Assembly: GCF_009192945.1 (NCBI RefSeq)
Contig: NZ_NSET01000047.1
Location: forward strand, 1-64,000
Direction of reading: 5' to 3'
DNA: 64,000 nt
DNA from: Xanthomonas maliensis
GTDB lineage: Bacteria; Pseudomonadota; Gammaproteobacteria; Xanthomonadales; Xanthomonadaceae
The notes under the pieces were generated by a model. That model was not told the DNA's origin. It searched no databases and saw only the letters and a list, made by a program, of their open reading frames with translations. The position numbers and the translations under genes were made by a program. Of this stretch, positions 15,647 to 40,611 are shown in pieces (the stretch's first letter is position 1; each line of letters begins with the position of its first letter).

Positions 15647-15983
15647 TGGAATTCCTTGCGACATTGGATGGGGGAGGATGCAGCGCGCTGCATGCAGGCC
15701 CTGGTGTGTTGCGACACGGCCGAGCCCGCAATGGACGGCCCAGACGCATGGGGGACACGCAAGACCTGCACGGTGCCGATGGATACGATGGCGCGCTCAC
15801 CCACCAGGCACGCATTGCGCATGCATCGGGGACCCACCATCCATCTGCGGCACATCCACGCCGACCGTCGACCACGACACAGGTGTTCGCCCGGCACAGA
15901 TCAGCCCCCGATGGTAGCCGAACCGATGTGCAAGGCATGAGTCGGCGCTGAAGCGACACCGCCCCACGATCCCAATATGCGAC
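15647..15983. other. Intergenic region upstream of ugd with a 16-base palindrome
   Basis: These 337 bases separate the rmlD stop from the ugd start, with both genes on the minus strand. I see no convincing gene; open frames on both strands lack ribosome-binding sites and family-like sequence. A perfect palindrome ATGCAGCGCGCTGCAT lies at 15678-15693, between where a ugd promoter would be and the ugd start, and is a possible operator. A clear -35/-10 pair was not found. Confidence 0.5.
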
Positions 15984-16883
15984 TCAGCGCAGTACCAGGG
16001 TGTCCAGTACCTGGCCCAAGCCGTCCTGCCACTGCGGCAGCCGGACGCCGAATGTGTCTTGCAGGCTGCGCGTGTCCAATCGCGAATACGCCGGGCGCTT
16101 GGCCGGGGTTGGGTAGTCGGCGGTGGTGATCGCCTCGATGAACGGCCGACGAGCGATCAGGCCACGCGCCAACGCGTGAGTGAAAATGGCCTCGGCAAAA
16201 CCATGCCAGCTGGTTTCGCCCGCCGCGGTGAGGTGCCAGAGGCCGGAGGGCTGGTCAGGGTGGCGCAGGGCCAACGCGGTGAGATCGGCGATCAACGCCG
16301 CCGGGGTCGGCGTGCCGATTTGGTCGGCGACCACACGCAACAGGTCGCGTTCGGCGCCGACGCGCAGCATCGTGCGCAGAAAGTTATTGCCGTGAGCGGC
16401 ATAGACCCAGGCGGTGCGGAAGATCAGATGACGCCCGCCGGCGGCCTGCACTGCCTGCTCGCCGGCCAGCTTGCTCTGCCCGTACACGCCCAGCGGCGCA
16501 GTGGCATCGTCCGGCCGGTACGGTTGCGTGCCCTGGCCATCGAACACATAGTCGGTCGAGTAATGCACCATCGGCACGCCGGCACGCGCGCACCATTGCG
16601 CGATCACCCCGGGGGCTTCGGCATTGGCGCGAAATGCAGCATCGCGCTCCTGTTCGGCACGATCGACCGCGGTGTAGGCGGCGGCGTTGATCAGCACCGT
16701 CGGCCGTACCCTATCCAATACCAAGTCGAGCGATGCAAGCTCGTCCAGATCGATCCGCTCGCAAACACGTCCGTCAGGCAGATGGCCTGAGCGGCATGCC
16801 GCTACCACCGTCCCCAGCGGTGCCAGCGCCCTCAACAACTCAGTACCTAGCTGCCCGTTGGCGCCTATCACCAGCGTGGTCAC
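15984..16883 (-). CDS. rmlD: dTDP-4-dehydrorhamnose reductase
   Basis: This 299-residue SDR enzyme performs the last step to dTDP-L-rhamnose. The nucleotide motif VIGANGQLGTELL is at residues 5-17. INAAAYTAVDRAEQE and the STDYVFDGQGTQPYRPDD segment are diagnostic. The YxxxK catalytic pair is in YGQSKLAGE. The start is GTG at 16883, overlapping the rmlC stop as GTGA, so translation is coupled. Length is normal for the family. Confidence 0.95.
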   Translation of the reverse strand: MTTLVIGANGQLGTELLRALAPLGTVVAACRSGHLPDGRVCERIDLDELASLDLVLDRVRPTVLINAAAYTAVDRAEQERDAAFRANAEAPGVIAQWCARAGVPMVHYSTDYVFDGQGTQPYRPDDATAPLGVYGQSKLAGEQAVQAAGGRHLIFRTAWVYAAHGNNFLRTMLRVGAERDLLRVVADQIGTPTPAALIADLTALALRHPDQPSGLWHLTAAGETSWHGFAEAIFTHALARGLIARRPFIEAITTADYPTPAKRPAYSRLDTRSLQDTFGVRLPQWQDGLGQVLDTLVLR

Positions 16884-17437
16884 GGCTGATAGACCGGCAG
16901 TCGCTCTTCGGCAATATCCTCAAGCAACGGTGCAGCTCTGTCCTTCGCTGACAGGATGGGCGAGCTTATCGGCCAATCCACACCGATACTGCCGTCGTCC
17001 CAGCGAACACTGGCGTCGGCTTCATGCACATAAATATCAGTGCAGAGGTAGCTGAACACAACACGTTCAGACAACACCGCAAACCCATGGGCGAACCCCT
17101 CAGGTATCCAGAACTGTCGCTTATTTTCCGCGCTCAGGACAGCAGCAGTCCATTGACCGAAATACGGTGAGCCGCGCCGGATATCCACTGCGACATCGTA
17201 GACCTCCCCCTCTAGCACGCTGACCAACTTCCCCTGTGGGCGCGGCCATTGGTAGTGCAGGCCTCGCAGCACGCCCCGGGTCGATGTGGATACGTTACTT
17301 TGCAGGAAACGTAACGGCAGGCCATGTTGATCAAAACGCTCGGCGTTCCAGGTTTCAAAAAACTGACCGCGCTCGTCACCGAATACTCTTGGCTCTATGA
17401 CTAGGCAACCAGGCAAAGAAGTCTCAATGACTTTCAA
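16880..17437 (-). CDS. rmlC: dTDP-4-dehydrorhamnose 3,5-epimerase
   Basis: This 185-residue cupin enzyme epimerises dTDP-4-keto-6-deoxyglucose. The motifs [17 protein letters not shown] and [16 protein letters not shown] carry the conserved catalytic residues. The usual family start corresponds to a TTG at 17437 that overlaps the rmlA stop (TTGA), with GGAG 7 bases upstream. No ATG is available within the conserved start region, and longer starts would add 72 residues of rmlA-overlapping nonsense. The rare start inside an overlap suggests reinitiation after RmlA. Confidence 0.94.
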
Positions 17438-18321
17438 GGAACTACTCCACGTTGTGCGAGCGAGTGTAGATATTGGCCGTAGGCGTTCTTGCTCAGCGGC
17501 GCAGCCAATCGCTCCAATTGGGACGCATCGATCCATCCCTGAGCAAAGGCGATCTCTTCGGGACAACAGACCTGTAAACCCTGCCGCATCTGAATCGTCT
17601 CGATGAAATTGGAGGCCTCGTGTAGGGACTGATGCGTGCCGGTATCCAGCCATGCATAGCCGCGCCCAAGCGACTCCAAGTGCAGATCGCCCGTCTCAAG
17701 ATAACGCCGATTGAGATCCGTGATTTCCAGTTCCCCTCGACTGGACGGCATCAATTCTGCGGCATAGTCACATGCCCGTCCATCGTAGAAATACAGGCCA
17801 GTAACAGCATAGTTTGACCGAGGGCGCAGGGGCTTTTCCTCGATATTGATGACCTTCCCCTGAGAATTGAATTCGGCGACTCCATAGCGCTCGGGATCGT
17901 TGACCCAATAGCCGAACACGGTTGCCCCATGCTCACGCGCGCTGGCGCGGCGCAACACGTCGGTCAGACCGTGCCCGTGAAAGATGTTGTCTCCCAGCAC
18001 CAGGCAACTGGGCTTGTCGCCGACGAAGTCACGCCCAATCAGATAGGCCTGAGCCAAACCATCCGGACTCGGCTGCACCGCGTAGCGAACATCGATTCCC
18101 CACTGTGCACCATCGCCTAGCAATGCCTGGAACAGGGGCTGCTCGTGGGGCGTATTGATGATCAGAACCTCACGAATGCCGGTCAGCATCAGCACACTGA
18201 GCGGATAGTAGATCATCGGCTTGTCGTAGACGGGCAATAGCTGTTTACTTATCCCTTTGGTGATGGGATACAACCGCGTCCCGGAGCCGCCCGCCAGGAT
18301 GATGCCTTTTCGTTGTGTCAT
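17434..18321 (-). CDS. rmlA: Glucose-1-phosphate thymidylyltransferase
   Basis: This 295-residue enzyme forms dTDP-glucose from dTTP and glucose-1-phosphate. The signature [20 protein letters not shown] lies at residues 10-29, [12 protein letters not shown] near 108 and [21 protein letters not shown] near 160. The Gln, Lys and Asp residues of the active site are in place. XanA could supply the glucose-1-phosphate. The start at 18321 lies 53 bases after the rmlB stop, the only real gap in the rmlBACD operon. Confidence 0.96.
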
Positions 18322-18374
18322 AGATTTCCCTTAATGAGGTCATCGGCCTGCGTGCGAGCTAGACAAATGCCGCG

Positions 18375-19430
18375 TCAAGCAGATTCGCCAATCCGCTCGA
18401 GGCGATAACTGCCGTCCAGCACGCTCCGCACCCAGGCTTGGTTGTCCAAGTACCACTGCACCGTCAGGGCGATCCCTTGTTCGAACGTGTAAGCAGGATG
18501 CCAGCCCAGTTCATTGCGAAGTTTGCTGGCATCGATGGCATACCGGCGATCATGGCCGGGACGGTCGGCCACATAGGTAATCTGGCTAGCGCGCGGCTGG
18601 CCGTCGTCACGTGGCTGCAACCGGTCCAATAACGCGCAAATGGTGTGAACAACCTCGATATTCTGCCTTTCCGCGTTGCCTCCAACGTTGTAGGTCTGGC
18701 CGATACGCCCCTTCTCCAGCACGGTGCGAATCGCATCACAGTGATCGCTGACAAACAACCAGTCGCGCACCTGTTTGCCATCGCCGTAGATAGGAAGCGC
18801 CTCACCCGCTAGGGCCTTCGCGATGACCAAGGGAATCAACTTCTCCGGAAAGTGGTACGGCCCATAGTTGTTGGAGCAGTTGGTCGTCAGGACCGGCAAA
18901 CCATACGTATGATGAAACGCGCGCACCAGGTGATCAGACGCTGCCTTAGACGCCGCGTATGGGGAATTTGGCGCGTAAGGAGTCGTTTCAGTGAACTGAC
19001 CGGTCTCCCCCAAGGTTCCGTAGACCTCGTCGGTCGATACATGCAAGAAGCGAAAGGCGGCGCGCTCGAGCGCCGGCAAATTCCGCCAGTAATCCCGAAC
19101 AGATTCCAGCAAAGCGAGCGTTCCGACCACATTGGTCTGGACGAAGGCCGCAGGCCCATCAATGGAACGATCCACGTGCGACTCTGCAGCGAAATTCACC
19201 ACCGCCGCAGGCCGATGCTCGCCAAGCACGCGACTCACCAGAGTGCGGTCGCCAATATCCCCTTGGACAAACAGGTGGCTCGGATGGTCCCGCAGGGAAG
19301 CCAGCGTAGCCAGATTGCCGGCATAGGTCAGCGCGTCGAGCGTGATCACCCGCACTCCCCGGCGCACCGCCTCCAAAACGAAATTGCCGCCGATGAAGCC
19401 GGCTCCGCCGGTCACGAGCCACGTTGTCAC
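18375..19430 (-). CDS. rmlB: dTDP-glucose 4,6-dehydratase
   Basis: This 351-residue SDR enzyme is the first in the operon and the first committed step to dTDP-rhamnose. Features are GGAGFIGGNFV near residues 8-18, HVSTDEVYGTLG near 131, and the YxxxK pair in PYAASKAASDHLV. NCSNNYGPYHFPEKLIP follows. I prefer the GTG at 19430, preceded by a GGGGAGAG ribosome-binding site, because longer in-frame starts add about 40 residues without homology. It is divergent from etfB across about 210 bases. Confidence 0.95.
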   Translation of the reverse strand: MTTWLVTGGAGFIGGNFVLEAVRRGVRVITLDALTYAGNLATLASLRDHPSHLFVQGDIGDRTLVSRVLGEHRPAAVVNFAAESHVDRSIDGPAAFVQTNVVGTLALLESVRDYWRNLPALERAAFRFLHVSTDEVYGTLGETGQFTETTPYAPNSPYAASKAASDHLVRAFHHTYGLPVLTTNCSNNYGPYHFPEKLIPLVIAKALAGEALPIYGDGKQVRDWLFVSDHCDAIRTVLEKGRIGQTYNVGGNAERQNIEVVHTICALLDRLQPRDDGQPRASQITYVADRPGHDRRYAIDASKLRNELGWHPAYTFEQGIALTVQWYLDNQAWVRSVLDGSYRLERIGESA

Positions 19431-19643
19431 GGTTTGCCGCTCTCCCCGATCACTGATCGCGCTGATTTCAACGTCACAGAATATACGGTCGCGTGACCCG
19501 GAGCCTGAAGCCACCACATGACTCCTGCCGACACCCCCCATACGCCATCGCATGGTTACCGCTGCCCGGTTAGAATTACCCGCACTCCCGAGCCAGCCGC
19601 CGCGGCCGGGCCTTCCCGTAATCGCTGAAGGATCTCGTACACG

Positions 19644-20390
19644 ATGAAAATCCTCGTCGCCTACAAGCGCGTGGTGGACTACAACGTCCGCATTCAGGTC
19701 AAGCCGGATGGCTCCGGCGTGGTGACCGAAGGCGTCAAGCTTTCGCCCAACCCGTTCGACGAAATCGCCCTGGAAGAGGCCCTGCGACTACGCGACGCCG
19801 GCACTGCCAGCGAGGTCGTGGTGGCCACCCTGGCCCCCGCCGACGCGGCCGCCCATCTGCGCAACGGCCTGGCCATGGGCGCCAATCGCGCCATCCACGT
19901 GGTCACCGACAACGCCGTGCAGCCGCTGACCGCCGCCCGCGCCCTGCTCAAGCTGGTCGAGAAGGAGCAGCCGGATCTGGTGATCCTGGGCAAGCAGGCC
20001 ATCGACGACGATGCCAACCAGACCGGCCAGATGCTGGCCACCCTGTGGGGACGTCCGCAAGCCACGTTCGCCAGCAAGCTGGTGATCGCCGACGGCAAGG
20101 CCACCGTGACACGCGAGGTCGATGCCGGCCTGGAGACGCTGGAGATCGATCTGCCGGCCGTGGTCACCACCGACCTGCGTCTGAACGAGCCGCGCTTCAT
20201 CAAGCTGCCGGACATCATGAAGGCCAAGAGCAAGCCGCTGGAAACGCTGGCCTTCGCCGATCTCGGGGTGCAGGCGCACGACAGCCTCACCACCACCCAT
20301 TACGCCGCTCCGTCCAAGCGCAGCCGCGGCGTCATGGTCAAGGATGCCGCCGAACTGGTGGCCGCACTCAAGCAGAAGGGGTTGCTGTAA
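19644..20390 (+). CDS. etfB: Electron transfer flavoprotein beta subunit
   Basis: This 248-residue AMP-binding small subunit of ETF accepts electrons from acyl-CoA dehydrogenases. MKILVAYKRVVDYNVRIQVK starts the protein. The GKQAIDDDANQTGQMLA segment near 119 and the recognition-loop region LRLNEPRFIKLPDIMKAKSK near 190-209 are typical. AAGGAT lies 9 bases before the ATG. Its stop overlaps the etfA start by one base. In xanthomonads this pair marks one edge of the LPS locus. Confidence 0.97.
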   Translation: MKILVAYKRVVDYNVRIQVKPDGSGVVTEGVKLSPNPFDEIALEEALRLRDAGTASEVVVATLAPADAAAHLRNGLAMGANRAIHVVTDNAVQPLTAARALLKLVEKEQPDLVILGKQAIDDDANQTGQMLATLWGRPQATFASKLVIADGKATVTREVDAGLETLEIDLPAVVTTDLRLNEPRFIKLPDIMKAKSKPLETLAFADLGVQAHDSLTTTHYAAPSKRSRGVMVKDAAELVAALKQKGLL

Positions 20391-21334
20391 TGGCCAAGAT
20401 CCTCGTCGTTGCCGAACATCTCAACGGCCAGCTCAATGCGGCCACCGCCAAGACCGTCAGTGCCGCCCAGGCGGTATCGCCGGACGCAATCGACGTCCTC
20501 GTGCTGGCGGCCGAACCGGCAGCTGTCGCCAGCCAGGCCGCCCAGCTAGCCGGCGTGGCCCGCGTACTGACCGTGACCAACCCCGCCAACGCGAACGCCA
20601 TCGCCCAGGTGCTGGGGCCACAGGTGGCCCAGATCGCCGGCCAGGGGTATTCCCACGTGTTCGGCCCCTCGACCACCTTCGGCAAGGACCTGATGCCGGT
20701 GGTGGCCGCCCTGCTGGGCGTCAACCAGATCTCCGACCTGATGGCGGTCGAGGATGCCTACACCTTCAAGCGACCGATCTACGCCGGCAACGCCATCATC
20801 ACCGTGCAGGCACCGTCCGATCAGCCCGTGGTGGCGACCGTCCGTAGCGCCTCCTGGCCGGAAGCCGCCAGTGGCGGCAACGCGGCGGTCGAGGCCGTTT
20901 CGGTTGACGCCGCCTTGCCAAGCCACTCGCGTTTCGTCGCATTGGCGGCCGGCAGCTCCGATCGTCCGGATCTGCAGAGCGCCAAGCGCGTCGTCTCCGG
21001 CGGCCGCGGCGTCGGTTCGGCGGAGAACTTCAAGCACATCTACAGCCTGGCCGACAAGTTGGGCGCGGCGGTCGGCGCCTCGCGCGCAGCCGTCGATGCC
21101 GGCTATGTGCCCAACGAACTGCAGGTCGGCCAGACCGGCAAGATCATTGCGCCGGAACTGTACGTGGCCATCGGCATCAGTGGCGCGATCCAGCATCTGA
21201 CCGGCATCAAGGACGCCGGCACCATCGTGGCGATCAACAAGGATCCGGAGTCTCCGATCTTCGAGATTGCCGATATCGGACTGGTCGGTGATCTGTTCAC
21301 CCTGCTGCCCGAACTCGAAGCTGCCCTGGGCTGA
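20390..21334 (+). CDS. etfA: Electron transfer flavoprotein alpha subunit
   Basis: This 314-residue FAD-binding large subunit of ETF carries the FAD domain in its C-terminal half. The motifs are [15 protein letters not shown] near 203, the [20 protein letters not shown] loop near 242, and the [20 protein letters not shown] segment. It forms a heterodimer with EtfB and donates electrons to ETF-QO (5273-6922). The start overlaps the etfB stop (TAATG). The gene ends 12 bases before the flippase-like gene, so transcription may continue into the glycosylation block. Confidence 0.97.
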
Positions 21335-21346
21335 AGCCGAGTCGAG

Positions 21347-22333
21347 ATGTTATCGAGCGCTCGGTCACACAACGGCGACCCCAAGCCTCCGCGCTATCGC
21401 CTGGATCAGTTGGCGCTGTGTGTGCTCATCGTTTGCGCGGCCTATGTGGCCGCGCTGGTCTGGATCGATCGCGGCAACGGAACCTTCGCGCGGCTCGGCG
21501 AGGTGGGTCATCTGCTGGCCCTCGCGACGCTCCCGGTCTCGGCTAGCTATCTGTTCCGCTATTGGCGCTGGCGGTGGCTGTTGCGGCGCCAGGGAAATGC
21601 AATCCCCTGGTGGCCAGGCCTGGCCGGCTATCTGGCTGGGTTTGCCTTGACCGCGACGCCTGCCAAGGCGGGCGAGCTGATGCGGCTCCGTTACTTCGCC
21701 CGCCTCGGCGTTCCCGCGCCCAGGACCCTGGCAATCTTCGTTTTCGAGCGCGCCAGCGACCTGCTGATTATCCTGAGCGTGTCGCTACTGGCCGCGCCGG
21801 TGTTCCCGGCCCTGGGAACGCTGGCCGCAATTGTGCTGGGCGGCGTGCTCGTCCTGTTTGGCGCAGCTGCTTGGCCCGCATTGCTCGACTGGCTGGCACG
21901 GCTAGGCGAACGCCTGCCAGGCCGATGGCTCCGTGCCAGCACTCGTTTTTGCTTGGCCGCGGCACTGGAGCTGCGCAGTTGTCTGGGCCTGCGATCAATG
22001 GCCCAGAGCCTGTTCGCCGGCAGCCTGGCATGGGGCCTGATTTCCTGCGTCTTCGCCGGGCTTTGTCTGGCGCTGGGCCTTACGCTCGATCCCATCGTCG
22101 CGCTTGGCATCTATCCATTGGCGATGCTGGTGGGTGCAGTGTCCTTCGTGCCCGGCGGAGTCGGGACAACGGAATTAGCGATCGTGCTGATGCTCGAGCG
22201 ACTGGGCGTGGGAACGGCCGATGCCATCGCTGTGGCCGTCGCGGCCCGCCTGGTAACGCTCTGGTATGCGGTTGTGGTCGGCGCCCTCGCCCTGCTCAGC
22301 GCAGAACTGGGGGTGCGCCGTGAAGCCGATTGA
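21347..22333 (+). CDS. AglD/LPG-synthase-TM family flippase-like membrane protein
   Basis: This 328-residue integral membrane protein has 7-8 hydrophobic segments starting near residue 17. The loop [20 protein letters not shown] near residue 101 and the [16 protein letters not shown] motif near 264 are characteristic of the UPF0104/LPG synthase transmembrane family. Members include MprF-type flippases and AglD-like glycosylation proteins. No catalytic domain is attached. It heads a same-strand run with the HAD-UbiA and DprE1/E2-like genes, so an inferred role is moving a lipid-linked sugar across the inner membrane. Direct evidence for a substrate is lacking. Confidence 0.75.
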
Positions 22334-22379: not shown

Positions 22380-23825
22380 ATGTCCTCTCCCTCTTTCACG
22401 CCCTCCCGTCCTCCTGGTGCGGGACGCGCCCTGTGCGTGGACCTCGATGGCACGCTATTGAACTCGGACATTCTTTATGAGTCGGTGCTGGCGCTGCTGG
22501 CGCGCAATCCGCTGTATCTGTTCGTGTTGCCCTTCTGGCTCCTGCGCGGCAAGGCTGCGCTGAAGCGCGAGTTGGCATCGCGCGTCAGCCTGCCCGCCGA
22601 GACCCTGCCCTACAACGCCCAGGTCCTCGACTTGCTGCGCACCACCGAGCAGCGGCCGCGGGTGCTGTGCACCGCCTCGGATGCCCTACTGGTCACGCCG
22701 ATCGCCGAGCACCTGGGCCTGTTCGAGCAGGTGATCGCCAGCGACGGCAAGCGCAACCTCTCCGGCCACAACAAGGCAGCTGCGCTCGTCGAAGCCTTTG
22801 GAGAACGAAATTTCGACTACGCCGGCAACGGCAGCGTGGACTTGCATGTGTGGGACAAGGCCGGCGGCGCCTGGGTCGTGAACAACGACAATGCCCTGCG
22901 CAAGGCGGCCGCCCAGCGCACCACCGTGTATGCGCACTGGCCAGCACCACCGCGCGCACGGGCCTGGCTCAAGGCGCTGCGTCTGCATCAATGGTTGAAG
23001 AATCTGCTGGTTTTCTTGCCGCTGCTGGCAGCGCACCGCTTTCTCCAACCGACATCGATACTGCAGGCGGTTCTGGCCCTGGTTGCCTTTGGGCTTTGCG
23101 CCTCCGGCGTTTATGTCCTCAACGATCTGCTCGATCTTACCCCCGATCGCCAACATCCTCGCAAGCGCGAGCGTCCGTTTGCTGCCGGCCGCATTCCGCT
23201 CCTGCACGGACTCTTTGCCGCCCCGGCGCTGACCTTGGCGGGCCTGGCGCTGTCGTTGGCGTGCAACATCGAATTCACGCTGGTCTTGCTCGCCTATTAC
23301 GTGATGACGCTGGCGTATTCGCTCCGCCTCAAGCGCATTGTGATGATCGACGTGGTGTTGCTGGCAGCCCTCTATACCGTGCGCATCATCGGCGGTGCGA
23401 TGGCCATCGATATCGAACTGTCGTTCTGGCTGCTCGCGTTCTCGATGTTCATCTTCTTGTCGCTGGCACTGCTCAAGCGCTACACCGAGCTGCACGCCAT
23501 GCTGACCAGCGGTAAGACCAAAGCCAGCGGCCGTGCTTACTCGGTAGAGGACCTGTCGTTGTTGCAGTCGATGGGCGCTGCGGCAGGCTACATCGCGGTG
23601 TTGGTGATGGCGCTGTACATCAACAGCCCCGAGAGCGTACAGCTGTATCGCAATCCCAAGCTACTGTGGATGGTCTGTCCAGTGCTGTTGTATTGGGTCA
23701 GCCGGGTCTGGGTGGTCGCCCATCGCGGCGACATGCACGATGACCCCATCGTCTTTGCCGCCACCGATCGGGTCAGCCAGGTCGTCGTCGTGCTGTGCGG
23801 CCTGTTCGCCTTGAGCGCCATCTAA
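22380..23825 (+). CDS. HAD phosphatase-UbiA prenyltransferase fusion (polyprenyl-phosphate phosphoribosyltransferase-like)
   Basis: This 481-residue protein has an N-terminal HAD hydrolase (about 1-185) with nucleophile motif DLDGTLLNSD at 21-30, the CTASD motif near 97 and YAGNGSVDLHVW near 148. From about 195 it becomes a UbiA-type membrane prenyltransferase with 8-9 helices. The first Asp-rich motif NDLLDLTPDRQHPRKRERP lies at 248-266. The second region is YSLRLKRIVMIDVVLLAALY. The HPRKRERPFAAG ending is like decaprenyl-phosphate phosphoribosyl (DPPR) synthase, which attaches phosphoribosyl-pyrophosphate to a polyprenyl phosphate. The HAD domain could remove the 5-phosphate. The stop overlaps the DprE1-like start (TAATG). 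Confidence 0.85.
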   Translation: MSSPSFTPSRPPGAGRALCVDLDGTLLNSDILYESVLALLARNPLYLFVLPFWLLRGKAALKRELASRVSLPAETLPYNAQVLDLLRTTEQRPRVLCTASDALLVTPIAEHLGLFEQVIASDGKRNLSGHNKAAALVEAFGERNFDYAGNGSVDLHVWDKAGGAWVVNNDNALRKAAAQRTTVYAHWPAPPRARAWLKALRLHQWLKNLLVFLPLLAAHRFLQPTSILQAVLALVAFGLCASGVYVLNDLLDLTPDRQHPRKRERPFAAGRIPLLHGLFAAPALTLAGLALSLACNIEFTLVLLAYYVMTLAYSLRLKRIVMIDVVLLAALYTVRIIGGAMAIDIELSFWLLAFSMFIFLSLALLKRYTELHAMLTSGKTKASGRAYSVEDLSLLQSMGAAAGYIAVLVMALYINSPESVQLYRNPKLLWMVCPVLLYWVSRVWVVAHRGDMHDDPIVFAATDRVSQVVVVLCGLFALSAI

Positions 23826-25132
23826 TGGCCGACGCCGGGCAGTCCTGGGGACGCTATCCGCATGCGACGCAGACGCTGCTGCCGATCGTCGACCGGGCGG
23901 CGACCCTGCCGGCCTTCGCAGGCAACGCGCTGCCGCGCGGAAACGGCCGCAGCTACGGCGACAGTTGCCTCAATCCCGACGGCACCTTGCTGTGCGCGCG
24001 TGGCCTGGACCGCTTCATCGGCTTCGACCCCGCGTCTGGCCGGGTACGCTGCGAGGCCGGGGTCACGCTCGCCGAGATCATCGATCTGGTCCTGCCGCAG
24101 GGCTGGTTCCTGCCGGTGACACCGGGCACCCGCTACGTCACCGTGGCCGGCGCCATCGCCAACGATGTGCATGGCAAGAACCATCATCGCACCGGCAACT
24201 TCGGCCACCACGTATGCGCGTTCGAGCTGCTGCGCAGCGACGGCAGCCGCCGTCTGTGCACGCCGCAGGCCGATGACGAGGGCTGGTTCGCGGCCACGGT
24301 CGGCGGACTCGGCTTGACCGGGCTGATCACCTGGGCGGAGATCCAGTTGCGCCGAGTGCCGGGACCGGCGCTGGAGACGGAGAACATCCGCTTCGGCTCG
24401 CTCGACGAGTTCTTTGCGTTGTCCGCGGCCTCGGCAGACAGCCACGAGTACAGCGTCGCCTGGATCGACTGCCTGGCCAGCGGTCGCGCCCGCGGCCGCG
24501 GCCATTTCACCCGCGCCGATCACTGCGCCGGCCTGCCCGAGGAACGCCCGGCCTCGCCCGGCAAGGGCCTGACGATGCCGCTGACCCCGCCCGTCTCGCT
24601 GGTCAACAAGCTGTCGCTGCGGCCGTTCAACGCGCTGTACTACTGGCGCCAGCCCGCGCGCAGCAAGCGCCGGCTGAGCCACCTGCTGCCGTTCTTCTAC
24701 CCGCTGGACGGCATCCGTCACTGGAACCGCATGTACGGCCCGCGCGGCTTCCTGCAATACCAGTGCGTGCTGCCGCCGGCCAGCGCGCGCGACGGCGTGG
24801 ATGCGCTGCTGGCGGAAATCGCCCGCAGCGGCAGCGGCTCGTTTCTCGCGGTACTGAAGGAATTCGGCGATATCCCCGCACGCGGCATGCTCTCCTTCCC
24901 GCGCCCCGGCACTACGCTGGCGCTGGATTTCCCCAACGACGGCGACGACGTGCTGCGCCTGCTGGCGCGCCTTGATCGCATCGTCGACGCCGCCGGCGGC
25001 GCTCTGTACCCTGCCAAGGACGCGCGGATGTCCGCTGACTCGTTCAAGCGCGCCTACGCCCGCTGGCAGGACTTCAGTCGCTATCTCGATCCCTGCTTTT
25101 CTTCCGGCTTTTGGCGCCGGGTCACGGAGTGA
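23825..25132 (+). CDS. DprE1-like FAD-dependent oxidase
   Basis: This 435-residue oxidase resembles decaprenylphosphoryl-beta-D-ribose 2-oxidase. The FAD-binding motif RGNGRSYGDSCLN lies at residues 38-50. TPGTRYVTVAGAIANDVHGK at 99-118 is followed by HHRTGNFGHHV, as in DprE1. The C-terminal LYPAKDARMSADSFKRAY segment matches the DprE1 end. The position that carries the benzothiazinone-reactive cysteine in Mycobacterium tuberculosis (GWNICVDFP, recalled) appears as GTTLALDFP here, so Ala is expected. The gene overlaps the HAD-UbiA stop and is 2 bases from the reductase, making a tight operon. Confidence 0.88.
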   Translation: MADAGQSWGRYPHATQTLLPIVDRAATLPAFAGNALPRGNGRSYGDSCLNPDGTLLCARGLDRFIGFDPASGRVRCEAGVTLAEIIDLVLPQGWFLPVTPGTRYVTVAGAIANDVHGKNHHRTGNFGHHVCAFELLRSDGSRRLCTPQADDEGWFAATVGGLGLTGLITWAEIQLRRVPGPALETENIRFGSLDEFFALSAASADSHEYSVAWIDCLASGRARGRGHFTRADHCAGLPEERPASPGKGLTMPLTPPVSLVNKLSLRPFNALYYWRQPARSKRRLSHLLPFFYPLDGIRHWNRMYGPRGFLQYQCVLPPASARDGVDALLAEIARSGSGSFLAVLKEFGDIPARGMLSFPRPGTTLALDFPNDGDDVLRLLARLDRIVDAAGGALYPAKDARMSADSFKRAYARWQDFSRYLDPCFSSGFWRRVTE

Positions 25133-25134
25133 AC

Positions 25135-25863
25135 ATGCAACGCGTCCTCATCATCGGCGCCACCTCGGCGATTGCCGAAGCCACCGCCCGGCGTTACGCC
25201 GCGCGCGGTGCAGCCATCCATCTGCTCGGCCGCCAAGCCGCACGCCTGGAGGCGATCGCGTCCGACCTGTCGACTCGCGGTGGCAAGGCCAGCTGTGGCC
25301 TGCTCGACGTCAACGATAGCGCCGACCATGCGGCGGCCTTGGATGCCGCATGGGCCGCGCTGGGCGGCGTTGACGTTGTGCTGATTGCACACGGCACGCT
25401 GCCCGACCAAGCAGCATGCGATGCCTCGGTCGAACTGTCCCTGCGCGAGTTCGCCACCAACGGCACTTCGACGATCGCGCTCTGCGCCGCCCTGGTGCCG
25501 CGCCTGGGCGCCGGCGCGACGCTGGCGGTGATTTCCTCGGTGGCGGGCGACCGCGGGCGCGCGAGCAACTATCTGTACGGCAGCGCCAAAGCGGCGGTCA
25601 GCGCCTACCTGAGCGGCCTCGGCCAGCGTCTGCGCCCGCTGGGTATCAACGTTCTCACGATCAAGCCGGGCTTCGTCGATACGCCGATGACCGCCGCTTT
25701 CAAGAAAGGCGCGCTGTGGGCCAAGCCCGATCAGATCGCCAAGGGCATTCTGCGCGCGGTCGATGGACGTCGCGCAGTCGCCTATTTGCCGGGATTCTGG
25801 TGGGCGATCATGTTCGTCATCAAGTCCATCCCCGAATTTGTCTTCCGCCGGATCACGCTCTGA
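25135..25863 (+). CDS. DprE2-like SDR oxidoreductase
   Basis: This 242-residue short-chain dehydrogenase is expected to reduce the 2-keto product of the DprE1-like enzyme, giving an arabinose configuration. The nucleotide motif is IIGATSAIAEATARRYA at residues 6-22. AHGTLPDQ near 89 is close to the DprE2 form, and the active-site triad is in VISSVAG with YLYGSAKAA. The C terminus has a hydrophobic stretch (FWWAIMFVIKSIPEFVF), consistent with membrane association as described for DprE2. The start at 25135 is 2 bases after the DprE1-like stop. Confidence 0.85.
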   Translation: MQRVLIIGATSAIAEATARRYAARGAAIHLLGRQAARLEAIASDLSTRGGKASCGLLDVNDSADHAAALDAAWAALGGVDVVLIAHGTLPDQAACDASVELSLREFATNGTSTIALCAALVPRLGAGATLAVISSVAGDRGRASNYLYGSAKAAVSAYLSGLGQRLRPLGINVLTIKPGFVDTPMTAAFKKGALWAKPDQIAKGILRAVDGRRAVAYLPGFWWAIMFVIKSIPEFVFRRITL

Positions 25864-25864
25864 C

Positions 25865-26809
25865 ATGACCGATAAACACGCCAAAATCGTCATCACCGGC
25901 GCCGCAGGCCTGGTTGGGCAGAACCTGGTCGTCGAACTCGAACAGCAGGGTTACACCCATCTGGTGGCGATCGACAAGCATGCGCACAACCTGCAGATCC
26001 TGCGTGAACTGCATCCTGCCGTTCGCGTCATCCATGCCGACCTGGCCGAGCCCGGCGATTGGTCGCGCGAATTCGAGGGTGCGGCCTGCGTGGCGCAATT
26101 GCATGCGCAGATCACCGGCAAGACCACCGATCTATTCACCCGTAATAACCTGACCGCTACCCAACACGTACTCGACGCCTGTCGCGCCGCAAACGTGCCT
26201 TATTTGGTGCACATCAGTTCTTCAGTGGTTAACTCGGTCGCCAAGGACGATTACACCAACACCAAGCGTGCCCAGGAAGAGATGGTGGTGGCCAGCGGAG
26301 TTCGCCACTGCGTATTGCGTCCGACGCTGATGTTCGGCTGGTTTGACCCCAAACACCTGGGCTGGCTGTCGCGCTTCATGGCCAAGACGCCGGTATTTCC
26401 CATCCCAGGCGACGGCAAGTTCATGCGGCAGCCGCTCTACGAGCGCGACTTCTGCCGCTGCATCGCCAAGTGCATCGAGCGCGAACCCGACGGACAGATC
26501 TACGACATCGTTGGCGACACCCGCGTCGACTACGTCGATATCATCAAGACGATCAAACGGGTCAAGAAACTACGCACCATGATCGTGCATATCCCGATCG
26601 GTTTCTTCGCCCTCCTGCTACGCGTGTATTCGCTCTTCAGTTCCAAACCGCCGTTCACTGCCGACCAGCTGAAGGCACTCAGTGCTGGCGATGACTTCAA
26701 GGGCGTCGATACCGATGCGGTATTCGGCGTGCGGCAAACGCCGTTCGAGGACGCGATCCGCGAAAGCTATACCGACCCGCGCTACAGCCATATCGTGCTC
26801 CAGCGCTGA
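25865..26809 (+). CDS. NAD-dependent epimerase/dehydratase family protein
   Basis: This 314-residue extended SDR protein has the nucleotide motif ITGAAGLVGQNLVVEL at the N terminus. SSVVNSVAKDDYTNTKRAQE carries a YxxxK-type pair (YTNTK), and VLRPTLMFGWFDP is a substrate loop. The fold and substrate class (nucleotide sugar or lipid-linked sugar) are clear, but the exact substrate is not recognisable. It begins directly after the DprE2-like gene, so it may modify the lipid-linked sugar. The preferred ATG at 25865 lies 1 base after the previous stop. Confidence 0.75.
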   Translation: MTDKHAKIVITGAAGLVGQNLVVELEQQGYTHLVAIDKHAHNLQILRELHPAVRVIHADLAEPGDWSREFEGAACVAQLHAQITGKTTDLFTRNNLTATQHVLDACRAANVPYLVHISSSVVNSVAKDDYTNTKRAQEEMVVASGVRHCVLRPTLMFGWFDPKHLGWLSRFMAKTPVFPIPGDGKFMRQPLYERDFCRCIAKCIEREPDGQIYDIVGDTRVDYVDIIKTIKRVKKLRTMIVHIPIGFFALLLRVYSLFSSKPPFTADQLKALSAGDDFKGVDTDAVFGVRQTPFEDAIRESYTDPRYSHIVLQR

Positions 26810-26830: not shown

Positions 26831-28126
26831 ATGAGCACATTCGCAATCGTCGGCAGCGGCCCCATGGGCCTGATGGCTGCCATGGAACTGTTGAAGAAAG
26901 GCCATCAGGTCGACGTGTACGAACGCGACGACCGCATCGGCGGCATGTCTGCAGATTTCGACTTCGACGGCCTGCGCATCGAGCGCTACTACCACTTCAT
27001 CTGCAAGACCGATTTTCCACTGTTCAAGCTGCTCAAGGACCTGAAGCTGTCCGATCGGCTGCACTGGACGGACACCAAGATGGGGTATTACTACCAGGGC
27101 AAGCTGCACAAGTGGGGAACACCGTTTGCGCTGCTCGGCTTCCCGCACCTGGGATTGGTCGACAAAGTGCGTTACGCGTTACACGTCATGCACACCAAGG
27201 GTATCAAGGACTGGGCACCACTGGACAAGGAGAACGCGCGCGACTGGATCACTCGCTGGATCGGCCCCAAGGCCTACGAGGTGATGTGGGAGAAGGCATT
27301 CGCGCTGAAGTTCTTCGAGTACCAGAACGACTTGTCCGCCTCGTGGATCGGCACCCGCATCAAGCGCGTGGCGCTGTCGCGGCGCAATCTGTTCAACGAA
27401 AGCATGGGCTACCTGGACGGCGGTTCGGCCGTGTTGTTGGAACGCATGGCGGCGGAAGTGACGCGCCTGGGAGGCCGCATCCTGTTGTCGCAACCGATTG
27501 AAGAAGTTGCCTCTGTCGATGGCAAGGTCACCGGCATCCGCACTCGCGACGGGCAACACGCCTACGACGGCGTGGTGTCGACAGCACCAATCCAATACGT
27601 GCCTGGCATGGTGCCAGGCTTGCCCAAGACCTTCGCCGACCAGGTCACCGCAATCGAGAACATCCCGGTCGCCTGCGTGATCCTGAAGCTGTCCGAGCCG
27701 GTCAGTGAGAACTTCTGGATGAACATCAGTGACGACCGGATCGCCATCCCCGGCTTGATCGAATACAGCAACCTCAACCCAGGTAAGGGCGCTGGCGAGC
27801 ACATCGTCTATGCGCCCTACTACATGCCCAAGACCCACCCGAAGTGGCAGTGGAGCAACCAGCAGCTCATCGACGAAGTCATCGGCTACCTGCCGATGAT
27901 CAATCCGAATTTCAAGCCGGAGTGGATTCGCGCGAGCCATTGCCATCGCTACGAGTATGCGCAGACGATCTGCCCGCCCGGATTCCAGGACATGCTGCCG
28001 CCGATGAAGACGCCGCTGAAGGGCTTCTATATGGCGGATACGGCGTACTACTACCCAGAGGATCGCTCGATCAATGAAAGTATCGCCGTGGGGCAGCGCC
28101 TCGCGGCAGAGGCGAAAGCCGGATGA
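26831..28126 (+). CDS. FAD-dependent oxidoreductase (amine-oxidase/protoporphyrinogen-oxidase-like fold)
   Basis: This 431-residue protein has an N-terminal FAD motif VGSGPMGLMAAMELLKKGH followed by YERDDRIGGMS. The C-terminal FAD-contact region is FYMADTAYYYPEDRSINESI. The middle contains a WARD-like YEVMWEKAFALKFF segment and a GYLDGGSAVLLERMA loop. Related genes are annotated in glycan clusters as FAD-dependent NAD(P)-type oxidoreductases or UDP-galactopyranose-mutase-like proteins. I cannot name the substrate. The ATG at 26831 and the 4-base overlap with the GtrA gene (ATGA) place it in the glycosylation operon. Confidence 0.7.
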   Translation: MSTFAIVGSGPMGLMAAMELLKKGHQVDVYERDDRIGGMSADFDFDGLRIERYYHFICKTDFPLFKLLKDLKLSDRLHWTDTKMGYYYQGKLHKWGTPFALLGFPHLGLVDKVRYALHVMHTKGIKDWAPLDKENARDWITRWIGPKAYEVMWEKAFALKFFEYQNDLSASWIGTRIKRVALSRRNLFNESMGYLDGGSAVLLERMAAEVTRLGGRILLSQPIEEVASVDGKVTGIRTRDGQHAYDGVVSTAPIQYVPGMVPGLPKTFADQVTAIENIPVACVILKLSEPVSENFWMNISDDRIAIPGLIEYSNLNPGKGAGEHIVYAPYYMPKTHPKWQWSNQQLIDEVIGYLPMINPNFKPEWIRASHCHRYEYAQTICPPGFQDMLPPMKTPLKGFYMADTAYYYPEDRSINESIAVGQRLAAEAKAG

Positions 28127-28515
28127 AAAGGCAGGCGTTGCTATTCTTGATGGCCGGCGGCATCGCTGCCGCCGCCAACTTCGGATCGCGCATCGCGCTC
28201 AGTCAGATTGTCCCCTATGTGCCTGCCATCGTCACGGCTTACATGATCGGGATGATCACCGCATTTACGCTGAACCGGGCATTCGTTTTCAAGGACGCCA
28301 CCAACTCGGTGCGCTCCCAGGCAGCCTGGTTTGTATTGATCAATCTGTTGGCAGTTGCCCAGACCGTCTTGATCAGCGTATGGCTGTCGCATTGGCTGGT
28401 GAAGGGACTGGCCAGCGAGGAGCTTGCCGAGACGATCGCACACGCGGTCGGCGTGATCTTTCCGGTCTTCACCAGCTTTGCCGGCCATAAGTATCTTTCA
28501 TTCCGGACGCATTGA
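28123..28515 (+). CDS. GtrA-like membrane protein
   Basis: This 130-residue protein with four hydrophobic segments belongs to the GtrA family. It starts with basic residues and a hydrophobic helix (LLFLMAGGIAAAANFGSRI), followed by MIGMITAFTLNRAFVF, whose FxLNRxFVF-like element is family-typical. The C-terminal FAGHKYLSFR matches the family NKYxxF end. GtrA proteins are thought to move or support polyprenyl-phosphate sugars in the membrane. The overlap with the FAD gene supports co-expression with the DprE1/E2-like genes. Confidence 0.85.
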   Translation: MKRQALLFLMAGGIAAAANFGSRIALSQIVPYVPAIVTAYMIGMITAFTLNRAFVFKDATNSVRSQAAWFVLINLLAVAQTVLISVWLSHWLVKGLASEELAETIAHAVGVIFPVFTSFAGHKYLSFRTH

Positions 28516-28611: not shown

Positions 28612-30627
28612 CTATCGGGCGACCGTTTCACATAGATCGAGCGGAGCATTCTCGCAGCGCTGCATCGGGCCAAGATCCAGTGGAGGTAGTCCGTAGTCAT
28701 AAGTGAACCATCCAGCCCCCTCTTGCAGTAACTCCAACCGCACCACTGCTCCATTGTCGAACTCGCTTGCCCGAACGCTCAGCACCATCTCGGTGCTCGA
28801 TCCCGGCTTGATACCAGGAAGCGGGGTACGCAGGAGCTCCGTACGCGGCATGGCACGTTGGCCACCTTTCCCACCAGGCAGCCGCACGATCGCCAGATTG
28901 ACCGGGTACGCACCATGACCAGCCAACGGCTTGAGTCCAACGTTACTGACGACAATCCGCATGACGAGCAAGCCAGAGTCATGTTCTAAGCGTGGCTGAC
29001 CGTCGAGTCGCATGACGACAGCGGTTTCCGTCGGCAGTAGCTTGACGTCGGTAGACAAGCTTGCGTCACCGACTTTTGGCGAAGTGCGATTCCCCAGGTT
29101 GCCTGCACCTTCTGCCAGGTAATAGCGCACCTGCGGCGTTGCCGCGATCTGCTTGCGCTGAGGAAGGAACTTGCTGCTGACGAGAACGAACTGATGCTTA
29201 CCGTCTTCGTCGCAGCGATTCTCTTCGTGAAAGAGGATGTGCCAGGACCCCGTATCGATGCAGACGCCGGGATGCTGGGGGTCGACCCGCTTAGCATATG
29301 CCAGTAGCGTCGCCGAGTCCGCCCAGCTATCGTCCCATCCGCCTTGCCTATCGATCGTCAGCGCAACTTGTTTGCCTCCCGCTTTCACGGTGAGCACATC
29401 AAGCGCCTTTTGATAGACAGCGACCGGCATCGATGCAGGTGTTTGCAATAGTTCGCTGGACTTGGCCCCTAGCAAAACGGCCACGCCAACCGCACTCAGC
29501 GCAAGCGCGTATCCGACAGCTGGCCGCCTTTGCTTCCACAAGGCAACAAGGCTAACAACCGTCAACGCGGCCAGAATCGCATAAAACGGCGTGAACCAGT
29601 ATTCGAGGTAGCGATACTCAAGACTATCGATCCCCTTGCGCGCGTACAGCATCGCGGCGACTAATCCGGCCAGAAAAATCAGCGCACCAACAGAGACGTG
29701 ACGCCGTTCGACCCTCGCACGCAACGCCCATCCCACCACGATGGCGAGCGGCAACACCAAATACCAGAACGGGACGAAATCGAACACATAGCCGACTACC
29801 GCGGGTATCTGATTTGGCTCGCGATGACCGGCGAAGGCAAAGTACTTGGGAAATTCGCCAGGCCAATGCACCAATGTTTGCGCCAGCAAAGGCGCAAGCA
29901 ATGCAATGATCAGCAGCGCACTGATGAGCAACGTCGACTTGCTGAGCGTGTTGAGTGGCGCCATCGCCCATTGACCTGAGCGCCAGGCAATCACGCACCC
30001 CGCCACCAGGACAAAGCAGATGATAGGAACCAGACCGACAAAGCTGGCGTGCCCGTGTATTAGTCCTCCCGCCCCCAGGATCAGCCAGGGAAGCCAGCGC
30101 CAGCCAAGCAACAACAAACCAGCAGCCCCGACGACGAAGACAACCGAAGCGCCGACGTAAAGAAATGGCGGCCAGGGCGCAGTGAAACTATAGGATTTGG
30201 CTAGTAGCAGTACCACCGTGAATACCGAAGCGCCAAGCAACGCTTCGGCAACGCTGCCGGTGAGCCGATGCATGAACGCAACGACCAAGGCGATTGCCAA
30301 TGCAGCAAAGCTCAAGCTTGCAAAAACCTGCGCCGCGAAGGGCGAGTGGAAGATAGGAATCAGGTCGAAAAAAAGCAGTTCCGACCATGCCATAAGCTGA
30401 AAGAAAAACGGCCCGGGATGATAGAAGCCAACGCGGCTGTAGTTACCATGCCAAAGCGCTAAATGCTTCGCTTCGACCACCAGCATATCGTTGGACGCAT
30501 AGTCGGTGAACGGCAGCACCGCGTCGTGGAAGAAGAACGATCCCTTGGTGATCAAGACCGCTGCGACGATCGCCACGAACGTTGCGACGGCCAGAAGGAA
30601 CGTGACACTGAGATATTTGCGTATCAT
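28612..30627 (-). CDS. GT-C-like multi-pass membrane glycosyltransferase candidate
   Basis: This 671-residue protein (ATG at 30627, no obvious ribosome-binding site) has about 11-12 hydrophobic helices over residues 8-400. A largely soluble C-terminal 260 residues follow, probably periplasmic. The first outer loop has acidic TDYASND and then VGFYHPGPFFFQL, a layout like GT-C enzymes that use polyprenyl-phosphate sugars. The C-terminal domain includes GGWDDSWADSATLLAYAKRV. No close family name is recognised. It converges with the GtrA gene and is the natural candidate for transferring the DprE1/E2-derived sugar. The longer TTG start at 30696 would add 23 residues without improving the membrane topology. 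Confidence 0.6.
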   Translation of the reverse strand: MIRKYLSVTFLLAVATFVAIVAAVLITKGSFFFHDAVLPFTDYASNDMLVVEAKHLALWHGNYSRVGFYHPGPFFFQLMAWSELLFFDLIPIFHSPFAAQVFASLSFAALAIALVVAFMHRLTGSVAEALLGASVFTVVLLLAKSYSFTAPWPPFLYVGASVVFVVGAAGLLLLGWRWLPWLILGAGGLIHGHASFVGLVPIICFVLVAGCVIAWRSGQWAMAPLNTLSKSTLLISALLIIALLAPLLAQTLVHWPGEFPKYFAFAGHREPNQIPAVVGYVFDFVPFWYLVLPLAIVVGWALRARVERRHVSVGALIFLAGLVAAMLYARKGIDSLEYRYLEYWFTPFYAILAALTVVSLVALWKQRRPAVGYALALSAVGVAVLLGAKSSELLQTPASMPVAVYQKALDVLTVKAGGKQVALTIDRQGGWDDSWADSATLLAYAKRVDPQHPGVCIDTGSWHILFHEENRCDEDGKHQFVLVSSKFLPQRKQIAATPQVRYYLAEGAGNLGNRTSPKVGDASLSTDVKLLPTETAVVMRLDGQPRLEHDSGLLVMRIVVSNVGLKPLAGHGAYPVNLAIVRLPGGKGGQRAMPRTELLRTPLPGIKPGSSTEMVLSVRASEFDNGAVVRLELLQEGAGWFTYDYGLPPLDLGPMQRCENAPLDLCETVAR

Positions 30628-30855
30628 TTGGCCGATGACGTCTATGGAACGGTGCTTACGAATCCGGCACTCGGCTAAATGTGTGCCCAGAGGCAAGCCG
30701 ACGCCGAATCATTCAGCCACGCGCTCATGCATGGAAGAGCTGGAATTGAATGCTAGGCCAGTACACTCCCTCCTGTCCACCGCCTCAGACTGCACGAGGC
30801 TGCAATGACCGCTCTGCATCGCCGCCGGCCCCCTTACGACAGAAAGCTCAGCAGG

Positions 30856-31743
30856 CTACGGCGCCGACAGCATCCATTCCAGAGTATCGCGGAGCGGGCG
30901 GAATGACACTTCCCCGGTCAAGGCAAGCAAGTGCTCGTTCGATCCTGCCAGCCGATTGACCTCATTGATACGCATGAATTCGGCGTCACTCTGGATTTGG
31001 AAAGAGACGCCCGAAATGTTCTCGACGAGTTCGATCACGGCACGCAAACTCGTTGATCGCCCACTGCAGATATTGACCGTTTCTCCGCCGAGCTTTCTGG
31101 CTATCAGCAGCCCATAGCATGCCACCAAATCGCGTACGTCCGTGAAGTCACGCTCGACATCAAGGTTACCCAGGCGCACGACCAATTCGCCTCTGCGCGC
31201 GTGATCCACCAACTTGGAGACGAAAAAAGACGGCGCCTGACCGATACCGATGTAGTTGAATGGCCGCGTCAGTACGATGGGCAAGCGGTCCATGTAAAGC
31301 TGGGCCACATACTCCGCAGCTACCTTGCTGACGGCGTAGTCGTTGAACGGTGCCATCGGCGACTGTTCGGTCAGCAGGGTATGCGACGATGGTCCGTAGA
31401 CATGCGCGCTACTGGCGATCAGCACGCTCGACGGAGCCTGCTTCAGTTGACTCAAAGCATCAAGAAGGTTTCTCGTACCGACGACGTTGGTTTGGTAGAT
31501 CGCTGAAATATCCTGATGGGCGACGTGGGAGATGCCGGCCAGATGCACTACGATCTCCGGACGTATCCGCTCGACTACCTCCCCGAGGCGAGGACGATCC
31601 AGCAGATCAACCGCGGTCACGTCGGCGGTCGAGCCGCCCGAGCGACGCAGGCCGTGCACCCGATAGCCCCTGCGCTGTAGTTCTTCGGCCATGTAGGGCC
31701 CGGTGAAACCATCTACACCGGTGACAATTGCAGTCGGCGTCAT
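30856..31743 (-). CDS. rmd: GDP-6-deoxy-D-mannose reductase (Rmd)
   Basis: This 295-residue SDR enzyme would reduce GDP-4-keto-6-deoxy-D-mannose from Gmd to GDP-D-rhamnose. TGVDGFTGPYMAEELQRRGY at the N terminus and LVIASSAHVYGP-like SSVLIASSAHVYGP are Rmd-like. The catalytic pair is in DYAVSKVAAE, and RPFNYIGIGQAPSFFVSKL and RDFTDVRD follow. It is the last gene of the minus-strand O-antigen operon, 81 bases after gmd. D-rhamnose is a common O-antigen sugar in Xanthomonas and Pseudomonas A-band polymers. Confidence 0.88.
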   Translation of the reverse strand: MTPTAIVTGVDGFTGPYMAEELQRRGYRVHGLRRSGGSTADVTAVDLLDRPRLGEVVERIRPEIVVHLAGISHVAHQDISAIYQTNVVGTRNLLDALSQLKQAPSSVLIASSAHVYGPSSHTLLTEQSPMAPFNDYAVSKVAAEYVAQLYMDRLPIVLTRPFNYIGIGQAPSFFVSKLVDHARRGELVVRLGNLDVERDFTDVRDLVACYGLLIARKLGGETVNICSGRSTSLRAVIELVENISGVSFQIQSDAEFMRINEVNRLAGSNEHLLALTGEVSFRPLRDTLEWMLSAP

Positions 31744-31824
31744 TGAAACAGTTTCCTTGCAACTTGTAGGGCATTGGATGCCCCCCGATGACGCCGACGC
31801 CAGCGAGGGGATGACGCGACAAAC

Positions 31825-34195
<2,371 letters not shown>

Positions 34196-34199
<4 letters not shown>

Positions 34200-36264: not shown

Positions 36265-36266
36265 TG

Positions 36267-37397: not shown

Positions 37398-37406
37398 CAG
37401 TCTTTC

Positions 37407-40607: not shown

Positions 40608-40611
40608 CGTT

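Follow-up and report, generated by a model that had tools for sequence, protein, structure and literature searches.

A 64,000-nucleotide stretch of the plant-associated bacterium Xanthomonas maliensis (positions 1 to 64,000 of contig NZ_NSET01000047.1, hereafter the window) carries, inside a lipopolysaccharide (LPS) O-antigen locus, a six-gene unit that encodes a HAD-UbiA fusion protein (UbiA), a DprE1-like oxidase, a DprE2-like reductase, a divergent extended short-chain dehydrogenase/reductase predicted to be a sugar epimerase (Epim), a FAD protein of the amine-oxidase superfamily (AOx) and a GtrA-type membrane protein. The six genes are linked and co-occur well beyond this organism, in the genus they occupy an allelic position between etfA and rmd/gmd, and GtrA and the candidate transferases near it vary while the remaining genes are conserved. 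We think it probable that the unit makes a lipid-linked D-arabinofuranose (Araf), that Epim and AOx process this further, and that the product decorates the O-antigen as a side branch; that the sugar is L-xylose we propose only tentatively.

The HAD-UbiA, DprE1-like and DprE2-like proteins

A preliminary description of this DNA had reported, at 22380..25863, three genes with spacing of one or two bases that encode a UbiA prenyltransferase fused to a HAD phosphatase, a DprE1-like oxidase and a DprE2-like reductase. Read directly, the three forward-strand open reading frames (ORFs) specify 481, 435 and 242 residues, and the spacing was right in substance: the DprE1-like ATG at 23825 and the UbiA stop share one base (a longer ORF opens with GTG at 23795), two bases separate DprE1 from DprE2, and one base separates DprE2 from the gene at 25865. 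The protein assignments were borne out by Pfam and by matches in the PDB. The coordinates proved too narrow, as the conserved unit reaches to about 28515 and the likely transferase lies at 28612-30696.

In the UbiA gene product, Pfam places HAD at residues 21-155 (27.9 bits, barely above the cut-off of 27) and UbiA at residues 217-454, and the top PDB match is decaprenyl-phosphate phosphoribosyltransferase 8j8j (E = 5.9e-28, residues 194-403), with which the protein shares NDLLDLTPDRQHPRKRERP. The Asp-rich cytoplasmic loop NDxxDxxxDRxHxxK and the KRxxE motif, which also align with 8j8j, occur in all 62 of the six-gene loci from named genomes described below, and a DxDxT-type HAD motif occurs in 58; HAD motif IV fits its strict pattern in none of the 62 and, once loosened, reads N in 48, with 14 unmatched. 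An order-level UbiA homologue adjoining DprE1 and DprE2 (L044:8620-9930) has an N-terminal part without the HAD signature (IPLEYSLVLTD), so that the phosphatase step would there be taken by other means.

The DprE1-like protein has the Pfam domain FAD_binding_4 and DprE1 4aut as its top PDB match (E = 3.2e-76, residues 30-441 of the longer ORF). Among the same 62 loci, the FAD-binding and catalytic-Lys motifs DxHGKNHH and AKDxR are present in 61 and 62, respectively, and a further pattern matches 19 in its strict form RGxGRSYGD and 59 when loosened to G.GRS.GD. The window protein keeps the equivalent of what we take to be Lys418 of DprE1, and the equivalent of the benzothiazinone cysteine, presumably Cys387, is Ala in 62 of 62 under a loosened pattern (the strict one left 14 unmatched). 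In the DprE2-like protein (Pfam adh_short), DprE2 chain 21gq_C ranks first of 386 matches to short-chain dehydrogenases/reductases (SDRs; E = 1.1e-25), and the Tyr-Lys pattern Y[GS][SA][AST]K is found in 59 of the 62 loci.

The NCBIfam equivalog models corresponding to the three proteins rank first or second, yet each remains under its cut-off: 168 bits versus 207 for DPPR synthase (NF008978), 369 versus 500 for DprE1 (NF053785) and 166 versus 250 for DprE2 (NF053786). Two other models are passed, NF006088 'UbiA family prenyltransferase' by UbiA (682 bits versus 351) and NF005489 'SDR family oxidoreductase' by the DprE2-like protein (309.9 versus 267). Because the equivalog cut-offs are missed, the trio is, on sequence criteria, a set of relatives of DPPR synthase, DprE1 and DprE2 that stands outside those NCBIfam equivalogs. 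The comparison with mycobacterial enzymes made in the preliminary description holds as homology, most of the checked motifs being kept.

Distribution and linkage of the six-gene unit

The UbiA protein was detected in 16 of 35 genomes of the genus and in 25 of 61 relatives, the window's own genome being included in both counts. Thirteen of the 15 other UbiA-positive genus genomes (loci L026-L038) have homologues of all six genes in the same order (13 of 13), with insertions in L029, L030, L034, L036 and L038; the remaining two (G011 and G033), taken to be represented by named loci L141 and L127, have all six genes too. In the locus of Xanthomonas phaseoli pv. phaseoli ATCC 49119 (L028/L129), the LPG_synthase_TM gene upstream and AOx are both in pieces and a 165-aa ORF matches just a fragment of the GT-C, decay and sequencing error being indistinguishable in this case.

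Across 369 genomes of the class (own genome included), Epim was found in 13 at E ≤ 1e-40 and the UbiA profile in 52 at E ≤ 1e-60; 12 genomes have both, where by our own arithmetic 1.8 would be expected by chance. Two of the 13 Epim genomes are the window itself and G047 (seen as L039). Among the 11 others, all of which were examined, AOx adjoins Epim in 10, and DprE1 and DprE2 lie in the examined stretches of 10 (at a second place in G345 and G406), G092 being the exception among Epim genomes. Six UbiA loci came from genomes negative for Epim, and four of these have DprE1 and DprE2 without Epim or AOx, which marks the latter two as an addition. Epim and AOx thus extend the Araf core and hardly ever occur apart.

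An Epim-alignment scan of named genomes gave at least 508 relatives, of which the best 80 form our sample of named loci; distant relatives lie outside it, gene presence was judged by profile scores that we set, and some contigs are cut. All six genes occur in 62 of the 80 and AOx in 77. The incomplete loci contain Epim and AOx only (7), these two and GtrA (4), all but UbiA (3), all but UbiA and DprE1 (1), or Epim alone (3). A methyltransferase is present in 27 of the 80, in 17 of these between core genes. A search of plasmids returned seven records, and each of the three that were opened, from alpha- and betaproteobacteria, has UbiA, DprE1, DprE2, Epim, AOx and GtrA in order. The Epim profile found no relative among viral contigs, and the search of phages with UbiA gave a single partial match, covering 45% of the query.

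Several individual loci deserve mention. A plasmid cassette of Burkholderia stagnalis (L226) has a methyltransferase directly before UbiA and an isonitrile synthase family gene a few genes away, and its pentose might be destined for a small molecule. Two copies of the cassette, identical in layout, lie on the chromosome of Dyella jiangningensis SBZ 3-12, near 0.23 and 5.29 Mb (L161, L162). A contig labelled Bacillus subtilis SK7B5 (L175) bears a xanthomonad-type cassette with an Epim 85% identical to that of the window, which is probably contamination.

The genes of the unit differ in how closely they are conserved. Among the 13 genus loci and the window (13-14 sequences per gene), mean pairwise identity is 0.945 for UbiA, 0.908 for DprE1, 0.931 for DprE2, 0.872 for Epim, 0.833 for AOx and 0.562 for GtrA, with 0.935 for etfA. 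Across the 62 six-gene loci, the identities of UbiA, DprE1 and DprE2 correlate with one another at 0.89-0.93, and with these three Epim correlates at 0.77-0.83, AOx at 0.66-0.73 and GtrA at 0.35-0.41, the low value for GtrA perhaps owing in part to its short length.

Epim, AOx and the membrane components

The alignment of Epim relatives contains the Rossmann glycine motif GxxGLVGxN and YTx[TS]K; the pattern YT.[TS]K is found in 62 of the 62 six-gene loci, and a long strict Epim pattern in 45. AOx belongs to the PRK07233 family, and in a structure comparison its AlphaFold2 model (pLDDT 93) has desaturases and oxidases as its nearest folds.

The 694-aa membrane protein encoded beyond GtrA matched no Pfam or NCBIfam family, and its AlphaFold2 model (pLDDT 42) is too low in confidence for use. 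It has about 10 transmembrane segments by hydropathy, an Asp in the first loop, the motif GNYSRxxFxHPGP, a conserved HGH and a C-terminal part free of transmembrane segments; on the hydropathy, the first-loop Asp and the GNYSR-HPGP and HGH motifs we predict it to be a GT-C transferase. Its homologues come directly after GtrA in L127, L132, L133, L176 and L189. Of 83 GtrA loci (13 genus and 70 named, overlapping in genomes), 78 have a polytopic ORF of 380 aa or more no farther than 6 kb from GtrA; this count has no background control and may take in membrane proteins of other kinds, and only 7 of the ORFs have the HPGP motif of the window type. When one polytopic ORF was picked by hand for each genus locus, 20 of 91 pairs were detectably related; mean GtrA identity was 64 in these pairs versus 55 in the remainder, and in the 5 detectable pairs with GtrA at least 73% identical the membrane proteins were 58-99% identical. 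This pattern fits a flippase/transferase pair that is swapped against a fixed donor pathway.

Position in the O-antigen locus

All 61 relatives, the window's own genome among them, have etfA, and within the genus the unit lies between this gene and rmd/gmd (Table 1). We examined the right side of etfA in all 19 module-negative genus genomes, of which two have contigs that end early; in the 17 uncut loci, BLASTP at 1e-6 found none of the six genes from etfA to rmd/gmd, and 10 of the 17 have a DegT-type aminotransferase in this interval (the family was checked for one). No cassette gene was seen beside etfA in G035 (L231). For X. campestris pv. campestris, the N-acetylfucosamine (FucNAc) branch of an independently built rhamnan chain is attributed to region 3 of the cluster (PMC4878081), and by their locus tags wxcK-wxcO fall between rml and gmd in X. 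hortorum pv. vitians (PMC9040725). Because 10 of the 17 uncut module-negative loci carry an aminotransferase at the same site, the region of the X. campestris branch sugar, the unit is best read as an alternative, exchangeable side-branch cassette of the O-antigen locus.

In 13 of the 19 module-negative genus loci (L208-L213, L219-L225; e.g., L209:8387-9106), an ORF of 200-242 aa near gmd matches the C-terminal part of the window GT-C (about 541-667 of the profile), and 4 of these 13 have an additional piece around 355-405; this ORF looks like a transferase remnant or a trimmed derivative.

Table 1. Genes of the unit and its surroundings in the window
Feature	Position	Strand	Basis or remark
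Sugar-nucleotide dehydrogenase, rmlD/C/A, dehydratase taken as rmlB from its place; etfB-etfA	14480..21334	- (etfB-etfA +)	Left flank; left cassette border is etfA
LPG_synthase_TM (UPF0104) membrane protein, possible lipid transporter	21347..22333	+	Pfam PF03706, 134.6 bits; outside the wider six-gene unit
HAD-UbiA fusion, predicted polyprenyl-phosphate phosphoribosyltransferase and 5'-phosphatase	22380..23825	+	Pfam HAD and UbiA; NF006088; PDB 8j8j; UbiA motif
DprE1-like FAD oxidase	23825..25132	+	PDB 4aut; NF053785 below cut-off; motifs
DprE2-like SDR reductase, YGSAK catalytic motif	25135..25863	+	PDB 21gq_C; NF005489; NF053786 below cut-off
Epim, divergent extended SDR (SSS...YTNTK), predicted sugar epimerase on lipid-linked pentose	25865..26809	+	Pfam Epimerase, 78.6 bits; family alignment
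AOx, FAD protein of the amine-oxidase/phytoene-desaturase/UDP-galactopyranose mutase (UGM) superfamily, predicted mutase or oxidase partner of Epim	26831..28126	+	NF005560, 549.8 bits versus cut-off 252
GtrA/DPMS transmembrane protein, predicted flippase for lipid-linked sugar	28123..28515	+	Pfam PF04138, 64.7 bits
694-aa membrane protein, predicted GT-C transferase	28612..30696	-	Hydropathy, motifs
rmd-like epimerase/reductase (label inferred from place) and gmd (GDP-mannose 4,6-dehydratase)	30856..32868	-	gmd: TIGR01472, 474.9 bits versus cut-off 415
Variable O-antigen genes: three GT4-type glycosyltransferases, DegT aminotransferase, PglD-like transferase, methyltransferase protein, ABC exporter (Wzt/Wzm)	32904..41541	-	Pfam

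The cluster of the window thus has gmd, the rml genes and a Wzm/Wzt-type exporter, its Wzm scoring 213.9 bits against NF050109, under the cut-off of 380; the rmd-like gene and gmd likely supply GDP-rhamnose for the main chain. The LPG_synthase_TM neighbour was recovered over at least 70% of its length from 12 of the 13 genus loci; none turned up in the order-level loci L039-L045.

Relation to known systems

The polyprenyl-phosphoryl-D-Araf core is already in print, Kelly 2024 making the same assignment for other Gram-negative loci (PMC11127046). As described there, PPPRS activity is established for Citrobacter ORF15, DprE1/E2 homologues occur in Araf systems, the SDR epimerase ORF13 is assigned to xylofuranose (Xylf), and the presence of several candidate epimerases or GT-Cs in Xanthomonas examples is noted as a matter whose significance 'warrants investigation' (PMC11127046). 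What is new here is that Epim and AOx form an added pair whose members are rarely apart, at times accompanied by a methyltransferase. From what is described of the three-component pentofuranose systems (Citrobacter youngae O1/O2, GT136; PMC11127046), our unit resembles them in its HAD-PPPRS fusion and in the predicted lipid-linked pentose, flippase, GT-C and post-polymerisation side branch; it differs in having GtrA (PF04138) instead of a MATE/EmrE-type ORF14, in the Epim/AOx pair and optional methyltransferase, and in its predicted GT-C, which matches no Pfam family and may or may not belong to GT136.

The mycobacterial decaprenyl-phosphoryl-arabinose pathway (Rv3806c, Rv3807c, DprE1, DprE2) has a homologous prenyl-phosphate phosphoribosyltransferase, oxidase and reductase; in contrast, the phosphatase is Rv3807c-like there and a fused HAD domain here, where in addition the Cys387 equivalent is Ala, equivalog cut-offs are missed and Epim and AOx are extra. 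Another Gram-negative system, the D-Araf pathway for pilin in group IV Pseudomonas aeruginosa, is similar as published in that a polyprenyl-linked Araf and a GT-C transferase are proposed, but its acceptor is pilin and its genomic setting is different (Harvey 2011, as cited in PMC11841053 and PMC11127046). Region 3 of the Xanthomonas wxc cluster (wxcK-wxcO) is likewise a side-branch cassette in the same LPS locus, but the accounts of it describe nucleotide-sugar branch genes (PMC4878081, PMC9040725), and no gene of the six was detected at that site in the 17 uncut module-negative loci.

A proposed pathway and its alternatives

We suggest that the UbiA domain would join phosphoribosyl pyrophosphate to polyprenyl phosphate, giving polyprenyl-phosphoryl-(5-phospho)ribofuranose, that the HAD domain would remove the 5-phosphate, and that oxidation of C2 by DprE1 and reduction by DprE2 would yield polyprenyl-phosphoryl-D-Araf. 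Epim and AOx would then act on this lipid as a pair, which, together with use of the product as an O-antigen branch, completes a reading that the sequences make rather likely so long as the final sugar is left unnamed. Most likely AOx, whose superfamily is that of UGM and the amine oxidases, would be a UGM-like furanose/pyranose mutase and Epim a C4 epimerase, giving polyprenyl-phosphoryl-L-xylopyranose; GtrA would flip the lipid, and, once the rhamnose-containing O-polysaccharide has been polymerised, GT-C would attach the sugar to it, a methyltransferase within or beside the unit being optional elsewhere. We infer every one of these reactions, and the action of Epim and AOx and the identity of the sugar are the weakest parts.

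D-Arabinose with its C4 inverted is L-xylose. The O8 O-antigen of Stenotrophomonas maltophilia has, in the structure as reported, a 3-O-methylxylose branch (PMC5932162). For these two reasons we propose L-xylopyranose, and the methyltransferase in 27 of the 80 named loci fits the O8 branch. The cassette could then be the missing route to bacterial L-xylose, a possible but far from secure reading in which D-ribofuranose is inverted at C2 by DprE1/E2, D-Araf is ring-expanded to D-arabinopyranose by AOx and inverted at C4 by Epim, and the product, optionally O-methylated and flipped by GtrA, becomes a non-stoichiometric O-antigen branch through interchangeable GT-Cs. Ralstonia O-antigen contains L-xylose, and there the evidence is unfavourable: among 14 genomes taken for Ralstonia by 16S V4, UbiA-HAD was found in one, with two positive controls found, and Epim in none at E ≤ 1e-20, an empty result that is uninformative because that search had no positive control. 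This weighs against L-xylose unless the L-xylose strains differ or use another route. A search of open-access literature found no paper on L-xylose or O-methyl-xylose structures in Xanthomonas.

If D-Araf from DprE1/E2 were itself the final sugar, Epim and AOx would be mere neighbours serving another step. DprE1/E2 systems without either gene nearby do exist (L121, L124, L125, L126, L042, L044, L230), and Kelly 2024 links DprE1/E2 with Araf (PMC11127046); we nevertheless consider this unlikely, as Epim is accompanied by AOx in 77 of 80 named loci, UbiA is present in 12 of 13 Epim genomes, and gene order is identical in loci of three proteobacterial classes. The lipid-linked D-Araf of the preliminary description therefore stands as the natural reading of the product or an intermediate, but as the final sugar it is not supported, since the Epim/AOx pair follows in the unit.

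Two further possibilities overlap in part with the explanation that we favour. AOx and Epim could form a second oxidase/reductase pair that inverts C3 to give polyprenyl-phosphoryl-D-lyxofuranose, which would repeat the FAD-enzyme and SDR logic of DprE1 and DprE2 and suit an AOx fold nearest to desaturases and oxidases. However, extended-SDR epimerases are not known to need a flavoprotein partner, and we regard this pairing as improbable. Lyxofuranose is also, in the account of Kelly 2024, absent from all solved structures (PMC11127046). Alternatively, Epim could make D-xylofuranose from polyprenyl-phosphoryl-ribofuranose, as the SDR epimerase ORF13 of C. youngae O2 is described as doing (PMC11127046), a cell then having several pentose donors. 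Epim does directly adjoin UbiA in G119 and G125, but this route would make DprE1/E2 needless, yet both were found in every examined locus with UbiA and Epim, those of G119 and G125 included (with G092 a genome-level exception), and it leaves AOx unexplained; we give it little credence.

The preliminary description had left the acceptor as a surface glycan or a protein. A protein such as pilin has a precedent in the D-Araf pilin glycosylation described for group IV P. aeruginosa (PMC11841053), but the cassette lies inside an LPS locus at the site of another branch cassette, and in the part of the window that was annotated there is no pilin gene and nothing that ties the unit to pilin. The side-branch position favours a surface glycan, and a protein acceptor seems very improbable.

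Implications

A recently described form of surface-sugar decoration is extended by this six-gene unit of alpha-, beta- and gammaproteobacteria, which resides on both chromosomes and plasmids. An open-access literature search found no paper on L-xylose biosynthesis, and if Epim and AOx act as proposed, the unit would provide an enzymatic origin for the L-xylose known from bacterial O-antigens. The combination of a conserved donor core with an exchangeable flippase and transferase suggests a simple rule by which xanthomonads may change the branches of their O-antigens.

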